The notes beneath the pieces were generated by a model. It was not told the DNA's origin. It was given only the letters and a program-made list of their open reading frames with translations, and ran no database searches. Made by a program: the position numbers and the translations under genes. Shown here in pieces: positions 4,215 to 62,259 of a DNA stretch of 64,000 nucleotides. Within the stretch, counting starts at the first letter, position 1; the number at the start of each line of letters is the position of its first letter. The DNA lies in NCBI RefSeq assembly GCF_004210375.1, contig NC_134829.1:26304034-26368033 (forward strand), written 5' to 3'. Origin of the DNA: Tachypleus tridentatus. Lineage: Eukaryota > Arthropoda > Merostomata > Xiphosura > Limulidae.

Positions 4215-5229
4215 GAAATAGTTATCATAAAGGTCTTTTCTGTGCTTAGAAAATCTTTCCATCTATCCAACTCATTAAGTAAATTCAAGTTGAGAGTAGT
4301 TTTTGATCATGCTCAATTAATTTTTACCCAGTAAGCTGGGCCAACCACACCTTAAATGAACAATTATTATTTTTGTATACTGAAAAATATTGTTAGTAAA
4401 GAGATGGCTAACTTGGTGGTATCTCCCAATTTATATTACTGATGTTTACACTGCATTTTATAAATAGTTAGCTCAGGTTAAAAATTACTGAAATATTTTG
4501 CATGTACTGAAGCAGAATGACTAGAAATTTATGGTGAATTTAAAGCAATACTTTTAATTTAATACACTTCCAAAATGTAACTGAAATTAAAACAAAAATT
4601 ACCAAAAACAGAAGAAAAACACCAACCAGAAGTACTAACGTTATGTATGCATTTGCATATCAAAGCAACCTTTGTCATCTTACAAATGGCACTAGATTGA
4701 GAACACAGCTAACATTGCTGCAGTATAAACTTTATTGAATAGGCAAAAGTGTGTGATTTTGAGCCAAAAATAACTTGTTGATTTAATATGTGGCCATACT
4801 TACTTGAAAATACTTGTTAACTAATCAAATGAAAGTACAAATCATTTAATGGCTATCTTATAATTTTAAATTTCAATGAAGTGCATGCAGAGCCTTATTG
4901 CTTGTGAGAACTGTTACTGTTGTGCCAAAATGTAATAACATTAAGGTGACTGTAATACAAATTATGTGAGGTAACTGTGTCTCATAAAGTTTTGTTTTCT
5001 GCTGTCATAATGCTGTCTCTGCACACTGATGTGCAACTTCTGCATTAAAAGCTTTATTTGTGGTGAAATTTTGGTGTATGTTTAGTTTTTGTATTGTTAT
5101 CTAAGTCCCTCAAATGTCACTAGGAAACTCTTTTCTGCATGTTTAAAAGTTTTCTTTCTTGGTAAGTACATGCTTGTATAGAGTATGTGTTACTGTCCCT
5201 AGCAGGGTTGAAATTCTGCCGATACTCAC

Positions 5230-5405
5230 CGGTACTGTGTATTGGAACTTGTTTTTTAAGGTGGTAGTAGTACAGGACTGACTTGAGCTGCTCTGTCTTT
5301 TTTGTTTTTTTAACAACTGAGTACCTGTAATGTTTTTCACCCCTGGGCCATAGTAACACAGCAAAGAATTTGTCACCGATGAACTGGCTGTGTTTATTGC
5401 TTGAT
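5230..5405 (-). CDS. Candidate internal exon, unknown gene
   Basis: On the minus strand, an AG after a TG-rich run (5406-5407) and a good donor GTGAGT (complement of 5224-5229) bound 176 bp. That interval is open in a frame reading DQAINTASSSVTNSLLCYYG and ending FQYTVP. The peptide is serine/threonine rich with a basic patch (LLKKQKRQ) and matches no family I recognise. A second minus frame is also open, which weakens the coding case. The interval recurs in unit 2 (15167-15342) with one replacement change and is cut in unit 3. It could equally be non-coding sequence that happens to be open. Confidence 0.22.
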
Positions 5406-5759
5406 CTGCACACACACAGTATTACTTGAATACTTGTTGTTACTTTATATATAAAGCTGTGTTGTGTTCATCACTGTCATCTTCCTTATTTGTGATTCAT
5501 AATAAGTGCTTGCAAGAAAAATTTAGATGCTCATTTTTAAGTATTGGTGGAATGACAGATTTTTGAAATATTAAAAATCTCAATTTATAAAGTAAACTGA
5601 GTTGTGAACAAAAGTCATTTAAGAAACCAAAAATGACAGCAATATATCTAAGACTGAATCTTCTCAATTTTTTGTGCTATGGCTACTATATGAAAACAAC
5701 AACAACAACAACAAAACAGTAAACTGTATTGAACTGATGCATTGCTAATGTTTTGCAAT

Positions 5760-8470
5760 TAAGTGGATATTATGTTATGATAAAAGCACATTTAATGAGG
5801 GTATATTTTTTAATGCTATCTCACTAGTCACTATTTACTTATACTATGACTAATCTATAAAGGAAAACCATTAAAAAATTATGACTAACAGTATCTTAGT
5901 GTTCAGAACTTGAGATGGTAAAAGTATGTTTAGTATTTAAAATGTAACTTAGAAATTATTTAAGTGAAATACCATAAAAAGTAATAAAACAGGAATTTCT
6001 GTTCTAATGTAATTCAAAGAAATAATTTGGGAAGTTGTGTATGTAATGAATTTGAACAATTGTTATAAATCCTAAAATATTACTGTATAACTAGATTTTT
6101 TTATAGTTGCTCAGCCAAAAATTGAATGGTACATTATACACTGCACTCTGTATATGTTGTGTTGGGTTGAAAAACAGTTGAATGGTAATTTTAAGTGTCA
6201 TATTACAGAAGAAATCAAAGATAACCATAGAGAGTATTAAATTATATTGGTTTCTAAAACTAAATCAAAAATGTGTAACTTTGGGCAATAATGTTACATT
6301 ATTATGATCCTCCAAGCTGTAGCACCTTTTGATATTTTGTGTGAATATTGCTGCATGTAATTTGTTAAACTAGGAATTTCCACTGTTCACTAGAGTAGAA
6401 AATATTTGAGGGTTGCTATTTATTGTGGTAGAGGTAAACAGTTATTGATTTTGTTGTTGCCATTCAATGATTGAATATATTTATCTACTGATAAAATTAC
6501 ATGGCTAATACTTTTTTTTATCATTCAGGAAACTAATGGAATGCCTTAGATTTAACATATTTATGAAATGCTTAGTTACTGTAAGTTAAAAGGATGTCTT
6601 GTATTTTCATTAGATAAAGAAAATAAAGGATAATTATTCTATTATTTCAATAGCACAGATAAAGATCTTAAACTATCCAAACCACAGAATGATTGTGTAG
6701 TACAGTTAGCTAGATTTGGAGAGTAAGAAAACTGCACAGTTAGTGAGAGGTATTGTAATTGTATGGTTTAGTAAGCCATTATAAGATCAAAGCTAAAGTT
6801 CTGAATGACAAAATAAAGATGGGAGGTAAATGTATGATCTGGTAGGGTGGAGGAGTGCCCACACTAAATTATCAGATGGCAGAATAAAGATGAGGTAATT
6901 ATGCAATTTGGTAGGTTAGGGGGTGTGTCCACACTAAATCACAGATAACAGAATAGGTAATTATATGGTTAGGTAGGATAAGGGAGTGTCACTGCATGTT
7001 TCACATCAGGTAATACAGTTATTTGTCTGTTGTTTCAAGAGTAACTTGAATCCTGACATCTTAATATGTGTTGTGTATATACATTGTTGGAGAATGTCTA
7101 CCTTAATTACATCCTCATATTTCACACTAAAGATTGTTTTTTCACACAATCTAAATACATGACATTGTAAACATTGTTCACTGAAATTAAATGTGACACT
7201 CGCATTTTGGCTTTTCACTCATTTACTCTATTTCATTTAAGCATAGGTTCTGTAGCAGGAGTGTGTTAAAAAAACCTTATTGAAAGCTTCACCTTATACT
7301 AAATGTATGTAGATGTACATCACTTCAAAAGATAGAAATGTGTTAACATTACATTAGAAGATTACTGAACAAAATGATTTTGGTTCAGAGGTTTTTGATT
7401 TGTCTTGCTAGTGTTCAAAAGTCAAAAGTGCTTTTTTACAAAATTCATAAGGGGTTATGCTCAGCTGGAACGGTGATCAAAAGTTAGAAGCATTAGTTAA
7501 GAAATAATGATGAGGATTTGGGTTTGTTGTTTTTAATTTTTTTTGATAGGTGGTCAGACTTTAGAAACACCAGTTTCTGTAGATAACATGACAGTAAACC
7601 TAAAGGCTGGTCTGATAGTTATATGTCAAATAAAACGGTTTCGACGTAAGAAATGCAGTCCGAAGTAAAATGTACAATATATTTTAAACGTGCTTATACA
7701 AAATGTTATAGGTGGTTGCGTATATACTAGCATTTAAGAACGTTAACAATTGCAGTGTTATTAGTATAACAGAAAGCATGACTGAAATAGTATTGGAGAA
7801 AAACGTGTTCGTGAAAGAGTGACAACTGGTGAAGTTAAGAGTGTAGTTTCGTTTTTTCACTGTTGTATTAGTTCTTTACTGGATGTTTTTATATAATGTA
7901 AAATATTGTGAACCTCGGTTTCATATGTTATGTATGTTTTTGGCGTTTTAAAAAATAAACATTACTTTTATTTGTTTACTCGTTGTCGGTATATAATTTA
8001 AAACCTGCAATAAGTTTATTGAATTGTTTAATTTTAAAAACAAAACATCGTGTTGTACTGGTAAATACGTGTTCTATACAGCTTGTTAAATAATTATTAA
8101 TTTCTTTCGACCTTCGTTATTACTGCATACTTATTCTACCTAAATTTGTGTGAATTATTTGTTTAGGCCTGCGACGTGGCAGTAAATTTGTGTTTAATAG
8201 GATGAGTATTCAGTTATTACATTAAAGGCATATTTGGAAATGGAATGTTAGAAATGAGAGACAATATTAGGCCTTGCACTGTAAATACCATAGTTTCAAA
8301 TTTAATTCCTAGGTTTCCTGAACGATAGTTTACAAATATTTACTAAACACGTGACCATTTTTTTAAATATTAAATGTAAAAAAATTGTTATTTATTATAA
8401 TATTTAACGTATCATAATATTCAAAGCAATAACATAAGAACGTGAAATAAAAAAGCCGCAAATTTTGGCT
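5760..8470. other. Duplicated non-coding stretch
   Basis: No gene is recognised. The stretch matches 18013-20740 in unit 2, and its first two thirds match the inverted copy (34075-38220, RTE insertion excluded). A degenerate tandem repeat at about 6753-7020 is listed separately. Otherwise I see only AT-rich DNA. Confidence 0.6.
6753..7020 (+). repeat. Degenerate ~55-70 bp tandem repeat
   Basis: Four or so diverged units share the pattern GGTAATTAT.TGGTTTGGTAGG, GTGTCCACACTAAAT and CAGAATAAAGATGAG. The same array is in unit 2 (about 18990-19283) and in the inverted copy (about 36775-37080). It therefore predates both duplications. Confidence 0.6.
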
Positions 8471-8510
8471 AACAAAATTTACAATGCCTTATAAAGATTA
8501 GAAATAACAA

Positions 8511-9535
8511 ATGCTACTTGAAATGTTGAATAGCTTTAATGAAAAAGAATGCACTGTCGCCTGATTTCTGGGTATTGAGAAAACATTCGACGCTGTATGG
8601 CACAATGGTCTTCGGTTCCGTACGTACGAAATGGGACACAGCGTGGAATTATTCGCTGGTTTTCTTACTTTTTGAAAAACAGAAAATGTAGAATACGCGT
8701 AGAGGGAACTTTCTCGGAGTTCTTCACTCCAGAAGCTGGCGTCCTTCAAGGATGGGTGTTTAGTTCTATTCTCTTCATCGTGTATGTAGATAATATGCCA
8801 CTCAAAGACCCAAACCATGGATACGCGTCACAGTTCGTTCATGATGTAGCAATTTGGAAAAGTGCCCCTACACCAGAAATAGCAGCCATTAACTTACAAC
8901 CACAAGTAATTAGATTATGTGAATATTGTGAAAAATATAGAATTAAAATAAATACAGCGAAGATACAATTGGTAATATTTTCAAAATCAACGAAACATCA
9001 AAAAGTTCAACCCCAAATCTACATAAACGGAAAGCTTCTCCAAACTGCTACATCTGCAAAATGTTTAGGGTTAACATATGATTCTAAACTTACATGGATA
9101 AAACATGTAAATACCATAAAAACTAAAATTTGGTGAAGAATAAACTATGCTAGGAGTCAAACTTGTAAAAACTTCTGAACACCTGAAAACATCTGTAAAA
9201 AATACAAAACATGTATAAGACCAGTAGTAGACTATGCAGCTCCTGCGTGGATTAATGTAAGTGAAAAACAAATGCAAACCAAACTCCAAACATTACAGAA
9301 TACACTAATTACATCAGCATACAGGGTACCTAAAACCACTTCTTCAAAGTTCATGCACAATTACTCAAATACACAAACAATACCAGATAGACTTCTACAT
9401 AGTACACTAAAATATTTAGATAAAAATTGGCGAAAAAATGAGTTGTTATGCGAACTAGACAGATATTGCATATATGATGAAGAGAGACCTAAACACCTCT
9501 CCCCGTTAAACTTGTACATCAGATCTTTAAGATAA
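8511..9535 (+). pseudogene. Jockey-like LINE RT relic (unit 1)
   Basis: This is the C-terminal half of a LINE reverse transcriptase. Reading in the plus strand one meets the remains of the first catalytic motif (EKTFDAVWHNGL), the GVLQG block, the YVDNMPL segment, then FVHD where jockey-clade enzymes normally have F(A/V)DD, so a catalytic aspartate is lost. Further on come a LGLTYDSKLTWIKH block and the thumb-like tail PVVDYAAPAWINV ending RSLR. At least two in-frame stops break it, near 8565 and 9175, and the endonuclease and gag-like ORF are absent. The GW after LQG, where unit 2 keeps GG, marks extra decay in this copy. It is dead sequence, already in the unit before duplication. Confidence 0.85.
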
Positions 9536-9539
9536 CATC

Positions 9540-10540
9540 AAATTTAAAATAATAATAAAATAGAGCTAAAATAAAACAGGCCACCTACGTTCTAGACTTA
9601 TAAAAACATTTAAAAAATGAATGAACAATATAAATGGACATTGCCCTGAAAAGGACCAGATTTAAAGATATGCTATTACTTCAGCCATTTTGTATTTATT
9701 CTAAATGTATGAATCAGGCCACTCCAACAAAGTAATTGAAGGAGGAGGAGGTCTACTGTACCTGACCTTCCTGGGTATACAAATATATATACCGAGAGAG
9801 AGAAGTTGAATCGGGCATTATTTGTGGGGTATTCACCATGAGAACTTGTGTCAACTGTGAAGTGTGTAAATCAGTGTTGTAGCTGTAATGATGGTGATGT
9901 GGAATATAGTTTTCTTTATAAGGTAATGTTGAGTATTAAAATTAAAATTAAAGTCGACCATACTGAAGCACGGTTGAAAGCAACAGAAGTGAGAAAAGCA
10001 GTTTAAATAATTTGCGCTCACCAATATGATGGCCTTTACCAACATCACGAGCACATGTTAAGTTACTAACAACAGCAGTGTAGCGCAAAATAGCGGGGTC
10101 TTTTTTCCTCGAAAATCATGTTTGCCTTCTTCTGGAAGTTTTTAAAGAACAATAACAGAGAAAACAAAACATACACGCATACTGAATTTAAGTCGGCCTG
10201 GGCATTTCAGGTTCCTTCACTGTGGTATTTCTTATCATGTGATAATAGACTCGTGCCGCTCGCTCTATGCTGACAGCGGCTCTGCGCAAAGACTTCTCTG
10301 CAGAAACAGAGCTGTTAAAGCCAGCAGTCACTACAGGATTTGGGTAGGCCCATCAACAAAGTTAATATTGGCTTGTGTAAGCTCCAGAGTGCGACTTATG
10401 AAGTGTCTATGGAGTTCCTGTTACCCGTACTGTGGGAGAGTTATAGGAGGAAGTGAACGGATAAAGGCCCTCAGCGGCGTTCTCATCAGTCTAACCAACT
10501 GACAAGAGAACGACGTACAGCAGCTACACAGAACGCGCTG
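9540..10540. other. Intergenic, including GC-richer 10.2-10.5 kb
   Basis: The first 200-250 bp after the LINE frame are probably its 3' untranslated tail. The interval 10230-10540 has clearly higher GC than its surroundings and is not repeated elsewhere in the window except in unit 2 (22490-22800). It lies about 2 kb upstream of the dioxygenase and could be an upstream exon or regulatory island. No splice signals convinced me. Confidence 0.4.
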
Positions 10541-10547
10541 TACGGCT

Positions 10548-10817
10548 TTGTTTGTTTGTTTTGGAATTTCGCACAAAGCTACTCGAGTGCTATCTGTGCT
10601 AGCCGTCCCTAATTTAGCAGTGTAAGACTAGAGGGGATGCAGCTAATCATCACCACCCACCGCCAACTCTTGGGCTACTCTTTTACCAACGAATAGTGGG
10701 ATTGACCGTCACATTATAACGCCCTCACGGCTGGGAGGGCGAGCATGTTTGGCACGACTCGGGTGCGAACCCGCGACCCCCAGATTACGAAGCGCACGCC
10801 TTAACGCGCTAGGCCAT
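10548..10817 (-). mobile_element. tRNA-Thr-derived SINE (unit 1)
   Basis: In sense (minus) orientation the element starts with a tRNA-like head with A box TGGCC.AGCGCGTTAAGG and B box GGGTTCGCACCC, runs through a conserved middle (TATTCGTTGGTAAAAGAGTA), and ends in a conserved tail (GCACAGATAGCC...GCGAAATTCC) plus CAAA repeats. The head resembles tRNA-Thr(CGT) around the anticodon region. It is shared with unit 2 at 22811-23083, so it predates the duplication. Confidence 0.92.
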
Positions 10818-10856
10818 AATTATAAAAGAACGAGACAAAGCTTTATCAGTAGTGAA

Positions 10857-11084
10857 GCGGGTTCGCGCCCGCGTCGCGCTAAACGTGCTCGCCCTCCTAG
10901 CCGTGGGGGTGTATAATGTGACGGTGAATCCCACTATTCGTTGGTAAAGAGTAGCCCAAGAGTTGGCGGTGGGTGGTGATGACTAGCTGCCTTCCCTCTA
11001 GTCTTACACTGCTAAATTAGGGACGGCTAGCACAGATAGCCCTCGAGTAGCTTTGTGCGAAATTCCCAAACAAACAAACAAACA
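10857..11084 (+). mobile_element. 5'-truncated SINE unique to unit 1
   Basis: Same SINE family, plus orientation, beginning inside the B-box region (GCGGGTTCGCGCCC) and ending in CAAA repeats. It is flanked by a 12-bp target duplication, ATCAGTAGTGAA (10845-10856) and ATCAGTATTGAA (11085-11096). Unit 2 has a single uninterrupted copy of the target at about 23113-23124. The filled and empty sites show that this insertion happened after the two units separated. Confidence 0.93.
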
Positions 11085-11404
11085 ATCAGTATTGAACATA
11101 AACAATATAACAGTTTCTAGTATTAATTATATAATGCACAAATAACGCAGAAAAAATTAAATAAATAATAATTAGCTGGAATGCTAAGAATATTTTAAAA
11201 ACAATTTCGTTTCAATAACTGAGCCCGCGAGACGTGTGTATAATTTTATAGTGAAATTAATTAGGGAATGTTTTTGGTAATGCTATATGATAATAATGAA
11301 AACAAAGTTGAATATGTTAGGTCAATCACAGTATGTTTGCCGTATCCAGTGTCACATGAGGGTCCATAACCAACAAGACTGTATGTAATTCGCACCGTTG
11401 TTGG

Positions 11405-11686
11405 TTTGTTTGTTTGTTTTTTGAATTTCGCACAAAGCTACTCGAGGGCTATTATCTGTGCTAGCCGTCCCTAATTTAGCAGTGTAAGACTAGAGGGAAG
11501 GCAACTAGTCATCACCACCCACCGCCAACTCTTGGGCTACTCTTTTACCAACGAATAGTGGGATTGACCGTCACATAAAACGCCCCACGGCTGAAAGGGC
11601 GAGCATGTTTGGTGTGACGGGGATTCGAACCCGCGACCCTCAAATTACGAGTCGCACGCCTTAACACGCTTGGCCATGCCAGGCCT
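11405..11686 (-). mobile_element. tRNA-Thr-derived SINE (unit 1)
   Basis: Full-length minus-strand copy flanked by ACCGTTGTTGG (11394-11404) and ACCATTGTTGG (11687-11697), an 11-bp target duplication with one mismatch. The B box GGATTCGAACCC is intact. Shared with unit 2 (23432-23707), hence older than the duplication. Confidence 0.93.
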
Positions 11687-11831
11687 ACCATTGTTGGTAT
11701 CTGTGAAGTCACCATTTTTATGTGTACTCATGTCTAAACTCTTGACGACAATGAAGTAAATTGTTGAATTATTTAATTGAAAAAAATTCAATCTGAATAA
11801 TTATATAATAAATATTTACTTACAGATTATG

Positions 11832-11921
11832 CGTTGGGCTATTTGCTTTACCCACTGCGAGGAATGGAACACTTGATTTTATCACTATAAGGCAGCAAAC
11901 TTACTGCTGTTCTACCGAGGA
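11832..11921 (-). mobile_element. Old tRNA-like SINE fragment (third family)
   Basis: Read on the minus strand it gives a weak tRNA-like head (TCGGTAGAACAGCAGTAAG), a decayed B box (TGTTCCATTCC) and the tail AAATAGCCCAACGC. It resembles the family best seen at 43277-43400. It is present in unit 2 at about 23852-23941. Confidence 0.5.
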
Positions 11922-11929
11922 ACAACAGT

Positions 11930-12483
11930 ACGAAAAATATATGAAGTAGCATATGTCTTTAATTCATCATATTTCGCAAGAAACTTTATCACATCTCAAG
12001 TTAGTTAGCTTGATATGTATGTAATAAACAATCATGAAAAGGTACTTAAACGTAGAACAACAAAATTAATTACCGACAGAGTTACTGACGTAGAAGTTCT
12101 TGATTTAATGCAATATTATTTTTTTTTATTAAAATATTTACTATATCACTGTATGAGGCCTAATCTCGCTTCTTTTGTTCAAGGTCACTGATGAGGGGCG
12201 GAGTTTCGAAATTAGTGATAAGTAATGAATCGAATGACATATTTAAATTAATATTTAGTATTAGTTTTGTAAGTTGTCTAGGCAAGTTTAAGTTGTGTTT
12301 TACAATTTAATACCGAGCTCATGTACCTAATGAAAAATTAATTATTTTAATAGTTTAACATAATCGAGTAAAAATAACAGGAACAACAATAAAAGTTTGC
12401 AGATGTGTTGACCTGATTCATCACCGACAGTTTATTACCGTCGCGTTTTAGATAGGCTTAGATAGATTATTAATTTGATTAGG
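11930..12483. promoter_or_regulatory. Upstream region of dioxygenase gene
   Basis: About 550 bp of non-repeat sequence lies between the last SINE fragment and the start codon. It should contain the promoter or 5' leader. No clear TATA box or initiator could be picked out with confidence. The counterpart is 23950-24503. Confidence 0.3.
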
Positions 12484-13716
12484 ATGTCGCCGCATGTTTT
12501 GAGAACTTTAGTGGTTCCAGTTTTCTTTCTTCTGACTTCCCCGATTGTTAGGTGTGGTAGATATGCAGTGTTTGATTCTAAAACAAACTCTATTTACGAG
12601 TTTTGTCCTGGAAATTTAAGCTGCACACTGGAAATAACCCCAGACATGAATACGATAAAACCATTCCAAACGCTGTCAGATCTTCCTTTAGCTGTAATCG
12701 ATATGAAGGAGGCTCAGGAAAAACCAGAGAAAGTTGCTGCTCAAATTGTTGAAGCTATGGAAACTGTGGGGTTTATGTACTTAAAGAATATTCCAGACTA
12801 TGATGAAGATAAGCTATTTAATCAAACTAAATGGTTCTTTGATTTACCGATTGATGTGAAACGCCAAGTCACTCGGCACGTTTGGAATAAAGCCAACAAC
12901 TTTATTTATCGTGGGTTTTTCCCTGTTATCCCTGAATGGACGTCGTACAAAGAAAGCTTTGAAATTGGTGGTTGTAATAACATCACAAAACGAAGTAAGG
13001 TAAGAACGATTCGAGATACTCTGTATGAGAATAATGTTTGGCCCAATTCTCCTGATTCAGTTGCATCTGCAAACTTTAGAAAATCGATGGAGGAGTATTT
13101 TTTGGTTTACCATAGACTGTCTCTAGATGTATTACGTCTTGTAGAATTAGGCCTTGGTTTAAAAAAATCTCGCTTAACATCAATGTTTGAGTCGAATCCA
13201 CTGTCGACTCTACGTTTAATCCATTACCCACCGCGTCCATTGCAACATACCCCAAAATCGGCTACAGATGGAAACTTGGTTTTACTATGTGACAAACATG
13301 GTGATGCAGGGTTTTTTACTTTTCTAACTACATTTCATTACCATGGACTGCAAATGCAAGATTCAGATAACAACTGGATAAATATTCCTCCTGTAAAGAA
13401 TGCTCTTATAGTTAACATAGGACTAAATATGGCCAAACTTACTGCGGGAAGATTTAAACCAACAATTCATCGAGTTATCGATCTAGGAATTAGCAGATAT
13501 TCTGTGCCATTTTTTTTAGAACCACATTTCGACGCAGATATGAGCAATTCTCTTTTTGGAACTCCATTGGAAGGAACAGCGAAAAATCTGAAATATGGGA
13601 TGTGGTTAAAAAACAACTCAGCCCAATATGCGGAAAATGCCCATACTGACTGGGGTGTTCCGGAAGAACTTGTCTCTGATTACCAAACGAACTCGCATGT
13701 GAATGATGAACTTTGA
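12484..13716 (+). CDS. Secreted IPNS-like 2OG/Fe(II) dioxygenase
   Basis: An intronless frame of 410 residues from ATG 12484; an upstream in-frame TTG at 12475 is not a plausible start. Residues 1-24 (MSPHVLRTLVVPVFFLLTSP...) look like a cleavable signal peptide. Residues 67-165 match the N-terminal domain of the isopenicillin N synthase/plant-type dioxygenase family (AVIDM, ETVGFMYLKNIP, YRGFFP, ESFEIG). The catalytic jelly roll follows with Fe ligands H272 and D274 (HGD) and H329 (TIHRV), and 2OG/substrate contacts R338 and S340 (RYS). Possible N-glycosylation sites are N44, N113, N166 and N377. The family oxidises small molecules using Fe(II), mostly with 2-oxoglutarate; the substrate here is unknown. 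Family members are normally cytosolic, so the signal peptide is unusual. It could be a retrocopy or an acquired gene. AATAAA lies 400 bp downstream. Confidence 0.93.
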   Translation: MSPHVLRTLVVPVFFLLTSPIVRCGRYAVFDSKTNSIYEFCPGNLSCTLEITPDMNTIKPFQTLSDLPLAVIDMKEAQEKPEKVAAQIVEAMETVGFMYLKNIPDYDEDKLFNQTKWFFDLPIDVKRQVTRHVWNKANNFIYRGFFPVIPEWTSYKESFEIGGCNNITKRSKVRTIRDTLYENNVWPNSPDSVASANFRKSMEEYFLVYHRLSLDVLRLVELGLGLKKSRLTSMFESNPLSTLRLIHYPPRPLQHTPKSATDGNLVLLCDKHGDAGFFTFLTTFHYHGLQMQDSDNNWINIPPVKNALIVNIGLNMAKLTAGRFKPTIHRVIDLGISRYSVPFFLEPHFDADMSNSLFGTPLEGTAKNLKYGMWLKNNSAQYAENAHTDWGVPEELVSDYQTNSHVNDEL

Positions 13717-13740
13717 AAATTTCTGGTGCTGTCATGACAA

Positions 13741-13761
13741 GTATATATATATATATATATT
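13741..13761. repeat. (TA)n microsatellite after dioxygenase
   Basis: About ten TA units follow the stop codon in unit 1. Unit 2 has only GTATATATTG at the same place (25758 region). The length difference is a ready marker to tell the two units apart. Confidence 0.9.
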
Positions 13762-13942
13762 GTAATGTGGTTAAATCCTTAAAAAATATAAAAATTCTAA
13801 TATATAATATGTAATAATCTACTATAAAAATTATAATTGAAAGTTGTTAGCAGGAGAAACGTTTGTAACCTGTGCATGCATATATTATAAAATTAGATAT
13901 ATATTATATGATTTAAAACATTATCCAGTTTATAGTTTTTCA

Positions 13943-14023
13943 TTTTGTTTGTAGTTTAGTACAAAGCTACACAAAGAGCTATCTGTGCTCTACCCACCAC
14001 GGGTATCGAAACGGGTATTATCA
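13943..14023 (-). mobile_element. 5'-truncated SINE, second family
   Basis: The minus strand reads a B box GTTTCGATACCCG followed by GGTAGAGCACAGATAGC and a GTGTAGCTTTGT-like tail. The tRNA-like head is missing. The same relic sits at 25949-26030 in unit 2. Confidence 0.65.
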
Positions 14024-14115
14024 ACATAATAACATAACTGTGGTTGAATCAGTAACACTCGTTAAAAATACGTTAATATTTTATAAATGGTAGATTAATT
14101 TGATATTTATACGTC

Positions 14116-14121
14116 AATAAA
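14116..14121 (+). terminator. Possible poly(A) signal of dioxygenase
   Basis: AATAAA about 400 bp after the stop codon, conserved in unit 2 at 26121-26126. The hexamer is common in AT-rich DNA, so this is only a candidate. Confidence 0.3.
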
Positions 14122-14392
14122 CTTAGGCGGAAGGATCTTTTCTTTTTACTTTAAAGGATTATGATCAACTTTTTACTTGCCTACTTTCTTATTGCGAAAG
14201 GTATGGTCGTGACATTGTAATGTTTTCAGCTTAAACTGAACCGTCAGGTAAGTTAATCAATGGCCACAGTAAACAGTAGAATATTAGATAGCGTATGATA
14301 AACAAAAATAAATAAAACTTAACTGAAAGAGACTGGCAAAGAAATACATTGAAAAACTCAATACAGCAGCTCATGATGACAACGGTTTCATT

Positions 14393-14490
14393 TCGTTTGT
14401 TTGGAAGTTCGCGGAAAACTTCGCGATGGCCATATGCACCAGTCTTTTCTAATTCAGCAGTGAAGGTGTAGAGAGAAGGGAGATAGTCAT
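14393..14490 (-). mobile_element. Old SINE tail, ending at the junction SINE
   Basis: Strongly decayed tail of the tRNA-Thr-type SINE (TTTGTTTGGAAGTTCGCGGAA... TCTAATTCAGCAGTG...). The same relic is at 26399-26496. Its missing head is probably the decayed piece at 27505-27655, since both carry GAGATAGTC at the point where a younger SINE sits. Confidence 0.6.
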
Positions 14491-14562
14491 TGTTTGTTTG
14501 TTTGTTTTTGAATTTCGCACAAAGCTACTCGAGGGCTATCTGTGCTAGCCGTCCCTAATTTA
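14491..14562 (-). mobile_element. SINE cut by the unit 1/unit 2 junction
   Basis: Only the tail of a young SINE is present: CAAA repeats, then the segment up to CCCTAATTTA, which is fused directly to CCAGAAGTAC, the first bases of unit 2. The same chimera is at 26497-26567. It is the breakpoint signature of the tandem duplication. Confidence 0.9.
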
Positions 14563-15690
14563 CCAGAAGTACAAACGTTATGTATGCATTTGCATATCAA
14601 AGCAACCTTTGTCATCTTACAAATGGCACTAGATTGAGAACACAGCTAACATTGCTGCAGTATAAACTTTATTGAATAGGCAAAAGTGTGTGATTTTGAG
14701 CCAAAAATAACTTGTTGATTTAATATGTAGCCATACTTACTTGAAAATACTTGTTAACTAATCAAATGAAAGTACAAATCATTTAATGGCTATCTTATAA
14801 TTTTAAATTTCAATGAAGTGCATGCAGAGCCTTATTGCTTGTGAGAACTGTTACTGTTGTGCCAAAATGTAATAACATTAAGGTGACTGTAATACAAATT
14901 ATGTGAGGTAACTGTGTCTCATAAAGTTTTGTTTTCTGCTGTCATAATGCTGTCTCTGCACACTGATGTGCAACTTCTGCATTAAAAGCTTTATTTGTGG
15001 TGAAATTTTGGTGTATGTTTAGTTTTTGTATTGTTATCTAAATCCCTCAAATGTCACTAGGAAACTCTTTTCTGCATGTTTAAAAGTTTTCTTTCTTGGT
15101 AAGTACATGCTTGTATAGAGTATGTGTTACTGTCCCTAGCAGGGTTGAAATTCTGCCGATACTCACCGGTACTGTGTATTGGAACTTGTTTTTTAAGATG
15201 GTAGTAGTACAGGACTGACTTGAGCTGCTCTGTCTTTTTTGTTTTTTTAACAACTGAGTACCTGTAATGTTTTTCACCCCTGGGCCATAGTAACACAGCA
15301 AAGAATTTGTCACCGATGAACTGGCTGTGTTTATTGCTTGATCTGCACACACACAGTATTACTTGAATACTTGTTGTTACTTTATATATAAAGCTGTGTT
15401 GTGTTCATCACTGTCATCTTCCTTATTTGTGATTCATAATAAGTGCTTGCAAGAAAAATTTAGATGCTCATTTTTAAGTATTGGTGGAATGACAGATTTT
15501 TGAAATATTAAAAATCTCAATTTATAAAGTAAACTGAGTTGTGAACAAAAGTCATTTAAGAAACCAAAAATGACAGCAATATATCTAAGACTGAATCTTC
15601 TCAATTTTTTGTGCTATGGCTACTATATGAAAAAAAACAACAACAAAACAGTAAACTGTATTGAACTGATGCATTGCTAATGTTTTGCAA

Positions 15691-18012
15691 TATCATTATA
15701 TAAGCATTAAAGGAAAACATGTTAATGTGGGTAAGATTTGCATAGGAGATAGTTTTAGCTTCTTATGAAATCAAGTATTTCTAAATAGAATATTGAGAGA
15801 GTGATTTGTCCTAATGGGAATGCATTAACCAATCTGAATAGAGGAAAGACAAATCCTGAATGTAAATATTGTGGTTCCTTGAGAAGTGATTCAAAAAATT
15901 GAAGGTAAGACCTATATGCTTTTTGTGACAGAACACTATATTTTTATGTATGTAGGCATATATTTTAAAATATAAGTATCTGTTTTAAAATTGTATGGCA
16001 TGCAATATGAGAAATGGTTAGCATGAATATTATGACATATTTAGAGGCTTTATAGTATAAGTGAGCAAATTAGATTGTGTTAAGCTGGTGTTAAGCTTTG
16101 CCCATACTTATGATTTGTCAGATTTTATCTAGGATATAAAAGACCCTTTTATTAGCTTCTTTTAAAATAGCTTTAGCCCAATGTGGCTTTGCTATAAGAA
16201 AACACACACACACACACACACACACAAAATAGTTTTAACACAACAGTAAAGTGTTCTTTCACGTCAAAGCTCGGCATTCAGCATAGCTATGGTGATCAAT
16301 TTGTAAAAATGTTTAATTGCAGTATAGTTTCAGGAACTTGGCTCCTATTAGAATATAGCTTGAGTGCTTCTTTGATTTGAAAACATAATATTTCCTTAAG
16401 CCAAACTTGAGAGTGGACAAATGTTCTACACTTTTGTATTGGCCACATGCTGTTTTATGCTAGAATCCTAATATTATTCAAATAACTGCTTACTTGAGCC
16501 AGAAACTATTCACTCTTAAATAGGTTCAGCATCACCTTGAAGATGAACTGTGGTTTATATTAAATAGGTTAAATTTAGCTTAGGTCAAGATATTGTTGGC
16601 CATTAATTATATATAAATTAATTAACAACATTGGTGTACAATCATTAGTTTCCTTTCTCAATTGGCAAAGCATTAGCTATGTTCAGAAGGTGTTTGTGGA
16701 AGTATCAAAGGGTTACTTAAGGCCAGAACATCAATTGCTTTTAAGCTAGAACCTTGATTTTTTTTCTAAATGGCATGTGATAGTTTTATTGAAAGTTTTA
16801 AACAGATGATACATGTGTTTGAATGTAAACATTTAATTGTTTTTAATTAGTTTGATTACTTGCTTGCTTGACCTTTCACCTTGGTTTCCTTTGTAAAGAA
16901 ATCAAGAGAGCCAGAACCTAGGATTCCTTTATAAAACAATTAAGTAATAGCTTGGACAAAACAGAATTGTGATTGTCTGTGAAGAGATATTCTATTTCTT
17001 TTGGCCATACCTTGGTTTGTTTTTAAAGATTGTAACATAAGTGGATTAGCATTTGAACTTTTTTTGATAGTCACAAACTAAATGTATTATTTAATTAATG
17101 TAATTTTTGTGTCTGTTTAGACCAGCACTCTGACTTCTGTCAAATGGCTTTAGCATTAGTGCAAGCCACAAATACTTTGGTGCAATTGTAGTGCTATATG
17201 GATCAAAACCTTGCTTTCCATGTTTTAGTGCTAGCTTATTCCAGAACCCTTTTAGCTTCAAATGAAAGTATGTGTAAATAATTTAGTGCTATATTTTACA
17301 GGAATCCTAGCTTTGTTCTAATGATAGTTTCAGGAAACACCAGTAGTTTCTTTGTTCTTCTCTTAGCTTGTAACTCAGAACTGTTGTTGTTTTTTCCTAC
17401 TGCTTAGATGAGCCAGTAAATTGACTTTGATTTTAATGCTAATGTTGAGCAGAAATTTGATATCCTTGTTCTCTTGCTACAGTGGGCAGAATTTCAGTTT
17501 GTTTATTTCTAAATTCTATCTCACTAGTCAGTGTTTGCTTACACTGTGACTAATCTATAAAGGAAAGCATTTAGATATTATAACTAAGGGTATCTTAGTG
17601 TTCAGAACTTACTATTTTAAGTATCATTCAGAACCATAGTTTCTATGTTAAAATACTAACTTAAATGAGAACCATGATGTCTTTGTTCTTGTGTTAAAGC
17701 CAGACCCTTGGTTTCTTTATTTTTATGCTGGAATGTGCCACACCCAGTATTTCATTCTAATGTCTTTCATTCTTAGGCTTTTTTTTTTATTTTAATGTTA
17801 GTTTGGATCAGTTCCCTGATTTCTTTGTTCTAGTACTTCTGTGTGACAAAATTGTCCAGAACAATTAGTTCCTTTCTCTAAACCAGGAAACATATTCATG
17901 TATGTTCAGAAATATGATCTTCATATAAGGCAAGTGAATAGGCTGATCAGACATTGATTGTGTCTCAATGTGATGGCTACTTCATACAGAGAGTGTAAAA
18001 TAATAAGAATAT
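15691..18012. other. 2.3 kb present in unit 2, absent from unit 1
   Basis: In unit 1 the flanks meet as TTTTGCAATTAAGTGG (near 5757); in unit 2 they are separated by this block, with only an AT/AAT overlap at the breakpoints. No gene is recognised. It holds a CA repeat, a SINE tail, and a loosely repeated motif of the type CCAGAACC-TTGGTTTCTTTGTTCTAATG-TTAGCTTGG. About 110 bp at 17517-17628 is a diverged copy of 18069-18178 just outside the block. Confidence 0.7.
16172..16228 (+). mobile_element. SINE tail with (CA)n run
   Basis: TAGCCCAATGTGGCTTTGCT is the 3' tail of the third SINE family (compare the complement at 43300-43320), followed by about 13 CA units. The tRNA-like head is not visible. 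Confidence 0.6.
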
Positions 18013-18178
18013 TAAGTGGATATTATGTTATGATAAAAGCACATTTAATGAGGGTATATTTTTTAATGCTATCTCACTAGTCACTATTTACTTATACTAT
18101 GACTAATCTATAAAGGAAAACCATTAAAAAAGTATGACTAACAGTATCTTAGTGTTCAGAACTTACTCTTTTAAGATG
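17517..18178 (+). repeat. Diverged ~110-bp direct repeat pair
   Basis: 17517-17628 and 18069-18178 both read TATCTCACTAGTCA, then ...GACTAATCTATAAAGGAAA... and TATCTTAGTGTTCAGAACTT. They are diverged by perhaps 15%. Both are also present, inverted, near 38640-38735 and 38075-38180. Confidence 0.75.
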
Positions 18179-20777
18179 GTAAAAGTATGTTTAGTATTTA
18201 AAATGTAACTTAGAAATTATTTAAATGAAATACCATAAAAAGTAATAAAACAGGAATTTCTGTTCTAATGTAATTCAAAGAAATAATTTGGGAAGTTGTG
18301 TATGTAATGAATTTGAACAATTGTTATAAATCCTAAAATATTACTGTATAACTAGATTTTTTTTATAGTTGTTCAGCCAAAAATTGAATGGTACATTATA
18401 CACTGCACTCTGTATATGTTGTGTTGGGTTGAAAAACAGTTGAATGGTAATTTTAAGTGTCATATTACAGAAGAAATCAAAGATAACCATAGAGAGTATT
18501 AAATTATATTGGTTTCTAAAACTAAATCAAAAATGTGTAACTTTGGGCAATAATGTTACATTATTATGATCCTCCAAGCTGTACCACCTTTTGATATTTT
18601 GTGTGAATATTGCTGCATGTAATTTGTTAAACTAGGAATTTCCACTGTTCACTAGAGTAGAAAATATTTGAGTGTTGCTATTTATTATGGTAGAGGTAAA
18701 CAGTTATTGATTTTGTTGTTGCCATTCAATGATTGAATATATTTATCTACTGATAAAATTACATGGCTAATACTTTTTTTTATCATTCAGGAAACTAATG
18801 GAATGCCTTAGATTTAACATATTTATGAAATGCTTAGTTACTGTAAGTTAAAAGGATGTCTTGTATTTTCATTAGATAAAGAAAATAAAGGATAATTATT
18901 CTATTATTTCAATAGCACAGATAAAGATCTTAAACTATCCAAACCACAGAATGATTGTGTGGTACAGTTAGCTAGATTTGGAGAGTAAGAAAACTGCACA
19001 GTTAGTGAGAGGTATTGTAATTGTATGGTTTAGTAAGCCATTATAAAATCCAAGCTAAAGTTCTGAATGACAAAATAAAGATGGGAGGTAAATGTATGAT
19101 CTGGTAGGGTGGAGGAGTGCCCACACTAAATTATCAGATGGCAGAATAAAGATGAGGTAATTATGCAATTTGGTAGGTTAGGGGGTGTGTCCACACTAAA
19201 TCACAGATAACAGAATAGGTAATTATATGGTTAGGTAGGATAAAGGAGTGTCACTGCATGTTTCACATCAGGTAATACAATTATTTGTCCGTTGTTTCAA
19301 GAGTAACTTGAATCCTGACATCTTAATATGTGTTGTGTATATACATTGTTGGAGAATGTCTACCTTAATTACATCCTCATATTTCACACTAAAGATTGTT
19401 TTTTCACACAATCTAAATACATGACATTGTAAACATTGTTCACTGAAATTAAATGTGACACTCGCATTTTGGCTTTTTCACTCATTTACTCTATTTCATT
19501 TGAGCATAGGTTCTGTAGCAGGAGTGTGTTAAAAAAAACCTTATTGAAAGCTTCACCTTATACTAAATGTATGTAGATGTACATCACTTCAAAAGATAGA
19601 AATGTGTTAACATTACATTAGAAGATTACTGAACAAAATGATTTTGGTTCAGAGGTTTTTGATTTGTCTTGCTAGTGTTCAAAAGTCAAAAGTGCTTTTT
19701 TACAAAATTCATAAGGGGTTATGCTCAGCTGGAACGGTGATCAAAAGTTAGAAGCATTAGTTAAGAAATAATGATGAGGATTTGGGTTTGTTGTTTTAAA
19801 TTTTTTTTGGATAGGTGGTCAGACTTTAGAAACACCAGTTTCTGTAGATAACATGACAGTAAACCTAAAGGCTGGTCTGATAGTTATATGTCAAAATAAA
19901 ACGGTTTCGACGTAAGAAATGCAGTCCGAAGTAAAATGTACAATATATTTTAAACGTGCTTATACAAAATGTTATAGGTGGTTGCGTATATACTAGCATT
20001 TAAGAACGTTAACAATTGCAGTGTTATTAGTATAACAGAAAGCATGACTGAAATAGTATTGGAGAAAAACGTGTTCGTGAAAGAGTGACAACTGGTGAAG
20101 TTAAGAGTGTAGTTTCGTTTTTTCACTGTTGTATTAGTTCTTTACTGGATGTTTTTATATAATGTAAAATATTGTGAACCTCGGTTTCATATGTTATGTA
20201 TGTTTTTGGCGTTTTAAAAAATAAACATTACTTTTATTTGTTTACTCGTTGTCGGTATATAATTTAAAACCTGCAGTAAGTTTATTGAATTGTTTAATTT
20301 TAAAAACAAAACATCGTGTTGAACTGGTAAATACGTGTTCTATACAGCTTGTTAAATAATTATTAATTTCTTTCGACCTTCGTTATTACTGCATACTTAT
20401 TCTACCTAAATTAGTGTGAATTATTTGTTTAGGCCTGCGACGTGGCAGTAAATTTGTTTTAATAGGATGAGTATTCAGTTATTACATTAAAGGCATATTT
20501 GGAAATGGAATGTAAGAAATGAGAGACAATATTAGGCCTTGCACTGTAAATACCATAGTTTCAAATTTAATTCCTAGGTTTCCTGAACGATAGTTTAACA
20601 AATATTTACTAAACACGTGACCAATTTTTTAAATATTAAATGTAAAAAAAATTGTTATTTATTATAATATTTAACGTATCATAATATACAAAGCAATAAC
20701 ATAAGAACGTGAAATAAAAAAGCCGCAAATTTTGGCTAAGAAAATTTACCATGCCTTTTGAAGATTAGAAATAACAA

Positions 20778-21805
20778 ATGCTACTTGAAATGTTGAATAG
20801 CTTTAATGAAAAAAGAATGCACTTTCGCCTGATTCCTGGGTATTGAGAAAGCATTCGACACTGTATGGCACAATGGTCTTCGGTTCCGTATGTACGAAAT
20901 GGGACTACAGCGTGGAATTATTCGCTGGTTTTCTTACTTTTTGAAAAACAGAAAATGTAGAATACACGTAGAGGGAACTTTCTCGGAGTTCTTCACTCCA
21001 GAAGCTGGCGTCCTTCAAGGAGGGGTGGTTAGTCCTATTCTCTTCATCATGTATGTAAATAATATGCCACTCAAAGACCCAAACCGTGGATACGCGTCAC
21101 AGTTCGTTCATGATCTAGCAATTTGGAAAAGTGCCCCTACACCAGAAATAGCAGCCATTAACTTACAACCACAAGTAAATAGATTATGTGAATATTGTGA
21201 AAAATATAGAATTAAAATAAATACAGCGAAGATACAATTGGTAATATTTTCAAAATCAACGAAACATCAAAAAGTTCAACCCCAAATCTACATAAACGGA
21301 AAGCTTCTCCAAACTGCTACATCTGCAAAATTTTTTAGGGTTAACATATGATTCTAAACTTACATGGATAAAACATGTAAATAACATAAAAACTAAAATT
21401 TGGCGAAGAATAAACTATGCTAGGAATCTAACTTGTAAAAACTTCTGAACACCTGAAAACATCTGTAAAAAATACAAAACATGTATAAGACCAGTAGTAG
21501 ACTATGCAGCTCCTGCGTGGATTAATGTAAGTGAAAAACAAATACAAACCAAACTCCAAACATTACAGAATACACTAATTACATCAGCATACAGGGTACC
21601 TAAAACCACTTCCTCAAAGTTCATGCACAATTACTCAAATACACAAACAATACCAGATAGACTTCTACATAGTACAATAAAATATTTAGATAAAAATTGG
21701 CGAAAAAATGAGTTGTTATGCGAACTAGACAGATATTACATATATGATGAAGAGAGACCTAAACACCTCTCCCCGTTAAACTTGTACATCAGATCTTTAA
21801 GATAA
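20778..21805 (+). pseudogene. Jockey-like LINE RT relic (unit 2)
   Basis: Counterpart of the relic at 8511-9535. It keeps GVLQGGVVSPILFIMYVNNM in better form than unit 1, but also has FVHD in place of the catalytic F-x-DD, in-frame stops, and an extra T near 21330 that shifts the frame after TATSAK. The tail from HNYSNTQTIPDRLL to RSLR is readable at 21623-21805. It is inactive. Confidence 0.85.
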
Positions 21806-22810
21806 CATCAAATTTAAAATAATAATAAAATAGAGCTAAAATAAAACAGGCCACCTACGTTCTAGACTTATAAAAAAATTAAAAAATGAATGAACAATAT
21901 AAATGGACATTGCCCTGAAAAGGACCAGATTTAAAGATATGCTATTACTTCAGCCATTTTGTATTTATTCTAAATGTATGAATCAGGCCACTCCAACAAA
22001 GTAATTGTAGGAGGAGGAGGTCTACTGTACCTGACCTTCCTGGGTATACAAATATATATACCGAGAGAGAGAAGTTGAATCGGGCATTATTTGTGGGATA
22101 TTCACCATGAGAACTTGTGTCAACTGTGAAGTGTGTAAATCAGTGTTGTAGCTGTAATGATGGTGATGTGGAATATAGTTTTCTTTATAAGGTAATGTTG
22201 AGTATTAAAATTAAAGTCGACCATACTGAAGCACGGTTGAAAGCAACAGAAGTGAGAAAAGCAGTTTAAATAATTTGCGCTCACCTATATGATGGCCTTT
22301 ACCAACATCACGAGCACATGTTAAGTTACAAACAACAGCAGTGTGGCGCAAAATAGCGGGGTCTTTTTTCCTCGAAAATCATGTTTACCTTCTTCTGGAA
22401 GTTTTTAAAGAACAATAACAGAGAAAACAAAACATACACGCATACTGAATTTAAGTCGGCCTGGGCATTTCAGGGTTCTGCACTGTGGTATTTCTTATCA
22501 TGTGATAATAGACTCGTGCCGCTCGCTCTATGCTGACAGCGGCTCTGCGCAAAGACTTCTCTGTAGAAACAGAGCTGTTAAAGCCAGCAGTCACTACAGG
22601 ATTTGGGTAGGCCCATCAACAAAGTTAATATTGGCTTGTGTAAGCTCCAGAGTGCGACTTATGAAGTGTCTATGGAGTTCCTGTTACCCGTACTGTGGGA
22701 GAGTTATAGGAGGAAATGAACGGATAAAGGCCCTCAGCGGCGTTCTCATCAGTCTAACCAACTGACAAGAGAACGACGTACAGCAGCTACACAGAACGCG
22801 CTGTACGGCT

Positions 22811-23083
22811 TTGTTTGTTTGTTTGTTTTGGAATTTCGCACAAAGCTACTCGAGGGCTATCTGTGCTAGCCGTCCCTAATTTAGCAGTGTAAGACTAGAG
22901 GGGATGCAGCTAATCATCACCACCCACCGCCAACTCTTGGGCTACTCTTTTACCAACGAATAGTGGGATTGACCGTCACATTATAACGCCCTCACGGCTG
23001 GGAGGGCGAGCATGTTTGGCACGACTCGGGCGCGAACCCGCGACCCTCAGATTACGAAGCGCACGCCTTAACGCGCTAGGCCA
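22811..23083 (-). mobile_element. tRNA-Thr-derived SINE (unit 2)
   Basis: Orthologue within the duplication of the SINE at 10548-10817, minus orientation, with the CAAA tail at left and the tRNA-like head at right. Confidence 0.92.
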
Positions 23084-23431
23084 TAATTATAAAAGAACGA
23101 GACAAAACTTTATCAGTAGTGAACATAAACAATATAACAGTTTCTAGTATTAATTATATAATGCACAAATAACGCAGAAAAAATTAAATAAATAATAATT
23201 AGCTGGAATGCTAAGAATATTTTAAAAACAATTTCGTTTCAATAACTGAGCCCGCAAGACGTGTGTATAATTTTATAGTGTAATTAATTAGGGAATGTTT
23301 TTGGTAATGCTATATGATAATAATGAAAACAAAGTTGAATATGTTAGGTCAATCACAGTATGTTTGCCGTATCCAGTGTCACATGAGGGTCCATAACCAA
23401 CAAGACTGTATGTAATTCGCACCGTTGTTGG

Positions 23432-23707
23432 TTTGTTTGTTTTTTGAATTTCGCACAAAGCTACTCGAGGGCTATCTGTGCTAGCCGTCCCTAATTTAGC
23501 AGTGTAAGACTAGAGGGAAGGCAACTAGTCATCACCACCCACCGCCAACTCTTGGGCTACTCTTTTACCAACGAATAGTGGGATTGACCGTCACATTATA
23601 ACGCACCACGGCTGAAAGGGCGAGCATGTTTGGTGTGACGGGGATTCGAACCCGCGACCCTCAAATTACGAGTCGCACGCCTTAACACGCTTGGCCATGC
23701 CAGGCCT
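23432..23707 (-). mobile_element. tRNA-Thr-derived SINE (unit 2)
   Basis: Counterpart of 11405-11686, with the same 11-bp flanks. It has one TTTG unit fewer in the tail. Confidence 0.92.
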
Positions 23708-24503
23708 ACCATTGTTGGTATCTGTGAAGTCACCATTTTTATGTGTACTCATGTCTAAACTCTTGACGACAATGAAGTAAATTGTTGAATTATTTAATTG
23801 AAAAAAATTCAATCTGAATAATTATATAATAAATATTTACTTACAGATTATGCGTTGGGCTATTTGCTTTACCCACTGCGAGGAATGGAACACTTGATTT
23901 TATCACTATAAGGCAGCAAACTTACTGCTGTTCTACCGAGGAACAACAGTACGAAAAATATATGAAGTAGCATATGTCTTTAATTCATCATATTTCGCAA
24001 GAAACTTTATCACATCTCAAGTTAGTTAGCTTGATATGTATGTAATAAACAATCATGAAAAGGTACTTAAACGTAGAACAACAAAATTAATTACCGACAG
24101 AGTTACTTACGTAGAAGTTTTTGATTTAATGCAATATTAATTTTTTTATTAAAATATTTACTATATCACTGTATGAGGCCTAATCTCGCTTTTTTTGTTC
24201 AAGGTCACTGATGAGGGGCGGAGTTTCGAAATTAGTGATAAGTAATGAATCGAATGACATATTTAAATTAATATTTAGTATTAGTTTTGTAAGTTGTCTA
24301 GACAAGTTTAAGTTGTGTTTTACAATTTAATACCGAGCTCATGTACCTAATGAAAAATTAATTATTTTAATAGTTTAACATAATCAAGTAAAAATAACAG
24401 GAACAAGAATAAAAGTTTGCAGATGTGTTGACCTGTTTCATCACCGACAGTTTATTACCGTCGCGTTTTAGATAGGCTTAGATAGATTATTAATTTGATT
24501 AGG

Positions 24504-25733
24504 ATGTCGCCGCATGTTTTGAGAACTTTAGTGGTTCCAGTTTTCTTTCTTCTGACTTCCCCGATTGTTAGGTGTGGTAGATATGCAGTGTTTGATTCTA
24601 AAACAAACTCTATTTACGAGTTTTGTCCTGGAAATTTAAGCTGCACACTGGAAATAACCCCAGACATGAATACGATAAAACCATTCCAAACGCTGTCAGA
24701 TCTTCCTTTAGCTGTAATCGATATGAAGGAGGCTCAGGATAAACCAGAGAAAGTTGCTGCTCAAATTGTTGAAGCTATGGAAACTGTGGGGTTTATGTAC
24801 TTAAAGAATATTCCAGACTATGATGAAGATAAGCTATTTAATCAAACTAAATGGTTCTTTGATTTACCGATTGATGTGAAACGCCAAGTCACTCGGCACG
24901 TTTGGAATAAAGCCAACAACGTTTTTTATCGTGGGTTTTTCCCTGTTATCCCTGAATGGACGTCGTACAAAGAAAGCTTTGAAATTGGTGGTTGTAATAA
25001 CATCACAAAACGAAGTAAGGTAAGAACGATTCGAGATACTCTGTATGAGAATAATGTTTGGCCCAATTCTCCTGATTCAGTTGCATCTGCAAACTTTAGA
25101 AAATCGATGGAGGAGTATTTTTGGTTTACCATAGACTGTCTCTAGATGTATTACGTCTTGTAGAATTAGGCCTTGGTTTAAAAAATCCGCTTAACATCAA
25201 TGTTTGAGTCGAATCCACTGTCGACTCTACGTTTAATCCATTACCCACCGCGTCCATTGCAACATACCCCAAAATCGGCTACAGATGGAAACTTGGTTTT
25301 ACTATGTGACAAACATGGTGATGCAGGGTTTTTTACTTTTCTAACTACATTTCATTACCATGGACTGCAAATGCAAGATTCAGATAACAACTGGATAAAT
25401 ATTCCTCCTGTAAAGAATGCTCTTATAGTTAACATAGGACTAAATATGGCCAAACTTACTGCGGGAAGATTTAAACCAACAATTCATCGAGTTATCGATC
25501 TAGGAATTAGCAGATATTCTGTGCCATTTTTTTTAGAACCACATTTCGACGCAGATATGAGCAATTCTCTTTTTGGAACTCCATTGGAAGGAACAGCGAA
25601 AAATCTGAAATATGGGATGTGGTTAAAAAACAACTCAGCCCAATATGCGGAAAATGCCCATACTGACTGGGGTGTTCCGGAAGAACTTGTCTCTGATTAC
25701 CAAACGAACTCGCATGTGAATGATGAACTTTGA
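24504..25733 (+). pseudogene. IPNS-like dioxygenase, broken second copy
   Basis: Same gene as 12484-13716 with about 99% identity. Three single bases are missing within roughly 65 bp: one T in a T-run near 25120, one A in an A-run and one T near 25184-25188. The first shifts the frame and gives a stop at 25143-25145 after 213 residues, before the metal-binding half. The third restores the frame, so H-x-D, distal H and RYS are all still encoded in 25200-25733. Substitutions include E79D and FI140-141VF. Either a very young pseudogene or a consensus error in homopolymers of a real second gene; the length-neutral total of three and the clustering make the second possible. Confidence 0.85.
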
Positions 25734-25948
25734 AAATTTCTGGTGCTGTCATGACAAGTATATATTGTAATGTGGTTAAATCCTTAAAAAATATAAAAAT
25801 TCTAATATATAATATGTAATAATCTACTATAAAAATTATAATTGACAGTTGTAAGCAGGAGAAACGTTTGTAACCTGTCCATACATATATTATAAAATTA
25901 GATATATATTATATGATTTAAAACATTATCCAGTTTATAGTTTTTCAT

Positions 25949-26030
25949 TTTGTTTGTAGTTTAGTACAAAGCTACACAAAGAGCTATCTGTGCTCTACCC
26001 ACCACGGGTATCGAAACGGGTATTATCAAC
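25949..26030 (-). mobile_element. 5'-truncated SINE, second family (unit 2)
   Basis: Unit 2 counterpart of the relic at 13943-14023. Confidence 0.65.
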
Positions 26031-62215: not shown

Positions 62216-62259
62216 TTCAATGCACAGAGTTCAAAGTTTTCATATGTTTCATTGATATA

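Follow-up and report, generated by a model that had tools for sequence, protein, structure and literature searches.

The window analyzed here, a 64,000-nucleotide stretch of Tachypleus tridentatus DNA (bases 26304034 to 26368033 of contig 5 in a 2.17-Gb assembly), contains a real gene for an isopenicillin N synthase (IPNS)-family oxidase that is probably functional and whose product is probably, as predicted from its ends, directed to the endoplasmic reticulum (ER). Our best explanation is an ER-lumenal Fe(II)/2-oxoglutarate-type oxidase of the horseshoe crab, encoded by a lineage that would be separate from the intron-rich, cytosolic-type paralogs of the same genome and that, among the proteins compared, would be nearest to mostly marine bacterial enzymes; we give this explanation as a whole a probability of about 0.55. 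Residues 1 to 24 would direct the chain to the ER lumen and be removed by cleavage after C24, and the lumenal chain would fold as a double-stranded beta-helix. Of the active-site residues present, H272, D274, and H329 would bind Fe(II), and R338 and S340 would hold a carboxylate, most likely that of 2-oxoglutarate. Activation of O2 would then lead to oxidation, within the ER, of a small molecule or short peptide, and the C-terminal NDEL would allow the KDEL receptor to return the protein from the Golgi. The gene appears to have been recently duplicated in tandem, with one copy already broken.

The frame, its active site and its predicted fold

On the forward strand, 410 codons plus a stop run from 12484 to 13716, confirming the uninterrupted frame described in an earlier note made from this sequence. 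The frame starts at the first in-frame ATG after an upstream in-frame stop at 12463. Both IPNS-type domains that the note had recognized exceed the curated Pfam cutoffs: DIOX_N (PF14226; residues 71 to 188, positions 12694 to 13047, E = 2.4e-12, 48 versus 27.3 bits) and 2OG-FeII_Oxy (PF03171; residues 242 to 347, positions 13207 to 13524, E = 2e-14, 54.2 versus 23 bits). The iron ligands H272 and D274 (13297 to 13305) and H329 (13468 to 13470) are intact, as had been claimed, as is the carboxylate-binding R-x-S motif R338-Y-S340 (13495 to 13503); none of the five residues H272, D274, H329, R338, and S340 varies when the protein is aligned with 30 bacterial proteins or, in a second alignment, with 26 of those 30. 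This anatomy would imply Fe(II)-dependent activation of O2. An NCBIfam search with the protein gave no match up to an E value of 1, and an Rfam search of the window gave none. The genome, called arthropod-like in the note, can be assigned more sharply to a horseshoe crab, as it contains 19 matches to coagulin, a family that we take to be specific to these animals.

Folding of the single sequence was uninformative (mean pLDDT of 33). An AlphaFold model built from the alignment with 26 bacterial proteins reached a mean pLDDT of 81 and a pTM of 0.80, with 244 of 410 residues at a pLDDT of ≥90 and 27 of the 29 ten-residue blocks in residues 71 to 360 at ≥88; residues 1 to 28, 42 to 52, 169 to 172, 388 to 391, and 401 to 410 fell below 50. 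The modeled chain is a double-stranded beta-helix of the IPNS type. Foldseek placed IPNS structures first in the Protein Data Bank (PDB; E = 1.6e-25, 24 to 26% identity); a reconstructed ancestral ethylene-forming enzyme ranked lower, as did thymine-7-hydroxylase. When PDB entries were ranked by sequence, IPNS stood below 9ovh, thymine-7-hydroxylase, TraH, 6jyv, and TropC.

IPNS of Aspergillus nidulans (1ips, 1bk0) shares the fold, the iron triad, and the RxS motif with the window protein at only 24 to 26% identity; it is a cytosolic enzyme that acts on the ACV tripeptide without 2-oxoglutarate. Neurospora thymine-7-hydroxylase (5c3p), which was solved with alpha-ketoglutarate, shares the fold and the LRLxHYP and RYS motifs at 24% identity. 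Since these two motifs are common to both proteins, 2-oxoglutarate is the likely cosubstrate, and it is supplied in the ER, along with Fe(II) and ascorbate, to the collagen hydroxylases. In IPNS, as described in PMC4488382, the RxS motif instead binds the carboxylate of the substrate. Thymine-7-hydroxylase differs from the window protein in grouping with the other IPNS-type genes of the horseshoe crab genome: in the more careful of the two trees described below, it falls in a 12-row set with these paralogs (bootstrap 99, SH-aLRT 99) and directly beside them at only 81/65.

Candidate ER signals at the two termini

A von Heijne-type weight matrix predicts a signal peptide at residues 1 to 24 (12484 to 12555), with the best cleavage after C24 at a score of 5.45. 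This score was reached by 9 of the 187 chance ATG frames in the window with at least 40 open codons (15 pass 3.5), by none of the 320 internal starts of the protein itself, and by none of 87 microbial relatives, whose starts were set mechanically and 3 of which pass 3.5. A simpler home-made rule, applied first, did not call the N terminus signal peptide-like; because the matrix replaced this negative rule, the test was chosen after the fact. The hydrophobic start, taken alone, is good and not beyond chance. Residues 25 to 66 (12556 to 12681) form an N-terminal extension with C41, C47, and the sequon N44 that is mostly missing in six aligned bacterial relatives. The protein has sequons at N44, N113, N166, and N377 and cysteines at 24, 41, 47, 164, and 269; the four N-x-S/T sites and the cysteine pair to which the note had pointed are therefore present, and they are compatible with a lumenal route but do not prove it.

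Doubt is cast on the signal peptide by an AG at 12550 to 12551, within codon 23, which follows a pyrimidine-rich stretch and resembles a splice acceptor. Part of the hydrophobic start could belong to an intron, as its pyrimidine tract and acceptor, in which case an upstream exon spliced to 12552 would provide the real N terminus, with or without another signal sequence. The AG is preceded by CTGACTTCCCCGATTGTT, with a branch-point-like CTGAC in the tract, and the pyrimidine-rich codons are those read as F, L, V, S, and P. By approximate weights, the AG scores 3.87, which is within the top 1.8% of 7212 AGs and higher than three of the five acceptor sites assigned in paralogs. The paralogs also have a separate candidate first exon, M..[IL]P[VI][VI]D, in seven of nine regions examined, from which it follows that their domain would start directly, without a signal peptide; no such exon was recognized in regions C3 and C6, and in region C1 the open frame continues upstream beyond its Met. 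We nonetheless consider an intron edge rather unlikely. The one at 12551 is outscored by an AG within the catalytic domain, at 13519, so acceptor-like decoys do occur, and the ATG at 12484 has an A at -3. The GC content of the 68 bases from 12484 to 12551 (0.426) resembles that of the coding part (0.38) and not that of the upstream 184 bases (0.293); it is reached by 18% of same-size windows within the coding part and by 6.6% and 8.7% of those in the upstream and downstream flanks. An NDEL end would also still require a signal sequence, so by this argument some signal sequence would exist either way. The signal peptide that the note had proposed is thus favored by the matrix score and weakened by the first rule and by the acceptor-like AG inside it.

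The protein ends in SHVNDEL, a feature that the note had passed over, of which NDEL (residues 407 to 410, positions 13702 to 13713) would be a KDEL-type ER retrieval tail. Among 2058 stop-to-stop frames of at least 20 amino acids in the window, four end in [DENQ]EL and two in DEL, and the latter two are the two copies of the IPNS-family gene. None of the 87 microbial relatives checked has a DEL end. The genome has at least two KDEL receptor genes with gatekeeper residues of the human type, both of which keep RYLDLFT and FTPLEV...W, containing the residues that we take to correspond to D50, E117, and W120 of the human receptor. These genes (L141 and L142, contig 13) have N in one and T in the other at a position that presumably matches human residue 54. 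Since the gatekeeper-type residues are kept in both genes, retention of NDEL by the receptor is plausible.

According to the tests described in PMC8248988, the human receptor retrieves KDEL, HDEL, and RDEL and does not retrieve the uncharged ADEL or the acidic DDEL; NDEL is not among the tails named there. This failure with A or D at -4, together with the gatekeeper-type residues of the two receptor genes, would favor an enzyme that is truly secreted or resident in the Golgi, with a real signal peptide and an NDEL that does not retain it. We consider this improbable, because a wheat P5-type protein of the PDI family is described as ending in NDEL as well (PMC4355359) and, on general grounds, a supply of 2-oxoglutarate and Fe(II) outside the ER is doubtful. 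The NDEL tail and the predicted signal peptide taken together fit residence in the ER better than secretion. Of the secreted or lumenal oxidase suggested previously, the ER route is accordingly the plausible half, and secretion fits the NDEL end less well.

Paralogs, bacterial relatives and predicted lumenal homologs in animals

A search of the genome with the whole protein gave three matches at E ≤ 0.001 (seven candidates scored): the gene, its tandem duplicate, and a fragment of the latter. Genome-wide, PF03171 and PF14226 have 65 matches each at E values up to 10, two of each being the gene and its copy; the rest lie mostly in clusters on contigs 12, 2, and 72, with a few on contigs 10, 1, 3, 6, and 4. 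IPNS-type oxygenase genes with introns have expanded greatly, and in clusters, in the horseshoe crab (contig 12 at 65.90 to 65.99 and 75.89 to 76.21 Mb, contig 2 at 56.0 to 56.4 and 63.5 to 64.1 Mb, and contig 72), with further sites on contigs 10 (26.04 Mb), 1 (38.5 Mb), and 3 (66.3 Mb). Two paralogs read in detail, C10 and C12a, have about seven exons each over 10 to 12 kb, and their last exons end in LQY and ISY, respectively, not in DEL.

The earlier note had called the gene intronless, which holds within the frame, and had suggested that it might be a retrocopy or horizontally acquired. A retrocopy of one of the genome's intron-containing IPNS-family genes would explain a frame without introns beside the two relatives with about seven exons. 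It is very improbable: the tandem copy is the only close match in 2.17 Gb, the paralogs fall elsewhere in both trees, YRGxFP and PFFx[ED]P are absent from all three paralogs compared, and the stretch from 13717 to 14700 showed no A-tract. We therefore rejected this origin.

Two trees were computed. The first has 96 rows (the window protein, 87 bacterial, plasmid, or phage-collection proteins, three joined paralogs, and five PDB segments), and the second, more careful one has 54, after 9 long or partial rows, one paralog among them, were dropped and 33 were thinned. Bacterial sequences were collected with patterns taken from the window protein and one plasmid protein (84 relatives, 80 kept), and neither tree contains IPNS or IPNS homologs of other animals. 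In the first tree, the window protein falls in a 17-row set (SH-aLRT 99), the rest of which are mostly proteobacterial and mostly marine by name. In the second, it is in a set of 16 rows with 15 bacterial proteins (bootstrap 100, SH-aLRT 99), its placement within the set being weak (93/62); the two paralogs kept there lie in the 12-row set (99/99) with thymine-7-hydroxylase and cyanobacterial and other bacterial proteins. None of the patterns used in collecting the sequences was YRGxFP, a motif found in the window protein, in 15 of the 16 other members of the 17-row set, and in none of the 79 other rows, two PDB rows carrying the near form WRGYFP or one like it.

Grouping with bacterial proteins and the shared YRGxFP make a retrocopy unlikely and an old horizontal transfer possible, though unproven. 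The tree shows affinity, not transfer, as the sample was drawn by pattern and included no other animal homolog. The window protein is a long branch, by path length its closest row is L067, which is not in the bacterial set, and no bacterial protein compared exceeds 36% identity to it. In approximately unbiased (AU) tests, for which the group was named after the first tree, a single clade of the window protein and the paralogs was not rejected in the first sampling (P = 0.275) and weakly rejected in the second (P = 0.034). Horizontal acquisition, the other origin suggested before, is thus compatible with the bacterial grouping (100/99) and is held back by the AU values, the long branch, and the low identity. 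A fuller scenario, in which horseshoe crabs captured a bacterial-type IPNS-fold oxidase that gained ER signals at both ends and is now a 2-oxoglutarate-dependent small-molecule or peptide oxidase of the ER, we hold only tentatively.

The mostly marine proteobacterial oxygenases L091, L061, L062, L054, and L150 are collinear with the window protein over about residues 64 to 385 and share YRGxFP, STLR..YP, and PFFxEP with it; they differ in sequence (29 to 36% identity) and mostly lack the N-terminal extension. None of the 87 bacterial or other microbial relatives matches its signal peptide score or has its DEL end. In samples of two larger groups, 3 of 390 genomes of one bacterial order, including the center genome, matched at E ≤ 1e-34, and none of 369 genomes of one class did; the empty class sample shows little because the cutoff was strict, its own center genome standing at 7.5e-34. 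The best of these extra matches (E = 1.7e-40) is collinear from about residue 40 to 384. Ten neighboring genes of four relatives gave no common pathway, so no substrate is inferred from them: L070 lies near genes of the alcohol dehydrogenase type and for a proline racemase, a methyltransferase, a pyridoxal phosphate enzyme, and an aminotransferase, L062 near SBP_bac_5 and a gene without a Pfam match, L063 near two heme pathway genes, and L091 near MmgE/PrpD. A viral origin was rejected, two of eight possible scans of viral contigs having given no relative; in a phage collection, a distant homolog is encoded by 1 of 50,697 records, which lacks annotation and is flagged as unverified.

To our knowledge, the studied enzymes of the IPNS family are cytosolic, and the lumenal 2-oxoglutarate oxygenases of animals, such as the collagen prolyl and lysyl hydroxylases and their kin, belong to other branches of the superfamily. 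The view that the family is usually cytosolic, taken in the note, requires a caveat, since a 2015 paper (Francis et al., PMC4488382) described predicted signal peptides on ctenophore IPNS homologs, with SignalP D values of 0.899 and 0.919 for two Mnemiopsis models. A lumenal IPNS homolog in an animal is therefore not wholly new. By their published description, these ctenophore "FYY" homologs resemble the window protein in HxD...H, RxS, and, in the two Mnemiopsis models, the predicted signal peptide; they end in FYY where it ends in DEL, and have RELEHxD at the iron site in place of LLCDKHGD (PMC4488382). Beta-lactam genes acquired by transfer have been reported in a springtail (PMC5200902), and the genes listed as transferred in an enchytraeid include one for IPNS (PMC8460440). 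A narrow search of the open PMC literature, which never combined IPNS with KDEL, found no report of an IPNS homolog with a KDEL-type tail, and a search for IPNS, ER lumen, and 2-oxoglutarate found no paper. The main interest of the gene lies in its compartment and in its separate lineage within one genome. If ER resident, an IPNS-type enzyme would bring new chemistry to that compartment and, together with the ctenophore homologs, would suggest that marine animals have a broader, little-studied class of lumenal oxidases for natural products or for peptide modification.

A tandem duplication with one broken copy

The intact gene lies in a duplication unit at 5758 to 15187, and a broken copy lies in a second unit at 18011 to 27192. 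Positions 5758 to 10856 match 18011 to 23123 at 98.2%, and 11085 to 15187 match 23112 to 27192 at 98.5%. A match of 4625 to 5759 with 14562 to 15691 at 99.2% raises the possibility of a further partial unit upstream. In the second copy (24504 to 25733, forward strand), the frame is broken from about 25117 to 25186 through two deletions, one of 1 base and one of 2 bases, with stops left between them. The copies differ at 3 of 1230 coding sites and 33 of 2850 flanking sites (Fisher's P = 0.003); counting two doubtful sites next to the indel raises the coding figure to 5 of 1230 (P = 0.02). Each of the three clean coding differences alters an amino acid, a pattern expected under decay of one copy.

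The broken sister and the reverse transcriptase fragments within the same repeat units are what would be seen if the gene were a nonfunctional relic, with both copies decaying and neither expressed. This is quite improbable, given 410 open codons, retention of the catalytic residues at about 30% identity with bacterial proteins, and a coding stretch that has diverged less than the flanks between the duplicates. We therefore continue to read the intact copy as a probably functional gene. The reverse transcriptase fragments lie at 20833 to 21351 (over the cutoff) and 8579 to 9136 (under it).

Elsewhere in the window, 51433 to 52338 holds a 301-codon frame without a Pfam match, and 34774 to 36666 holds an open 630-codon LINE-like reverse transcriptase frame (RVT_1, E = 1e-35). 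Repeat arrays occupy 45020 to 46805 and 61661 to 62298, the latter of which has open frames on either strand and looks like a minisatellite rather than a gene.
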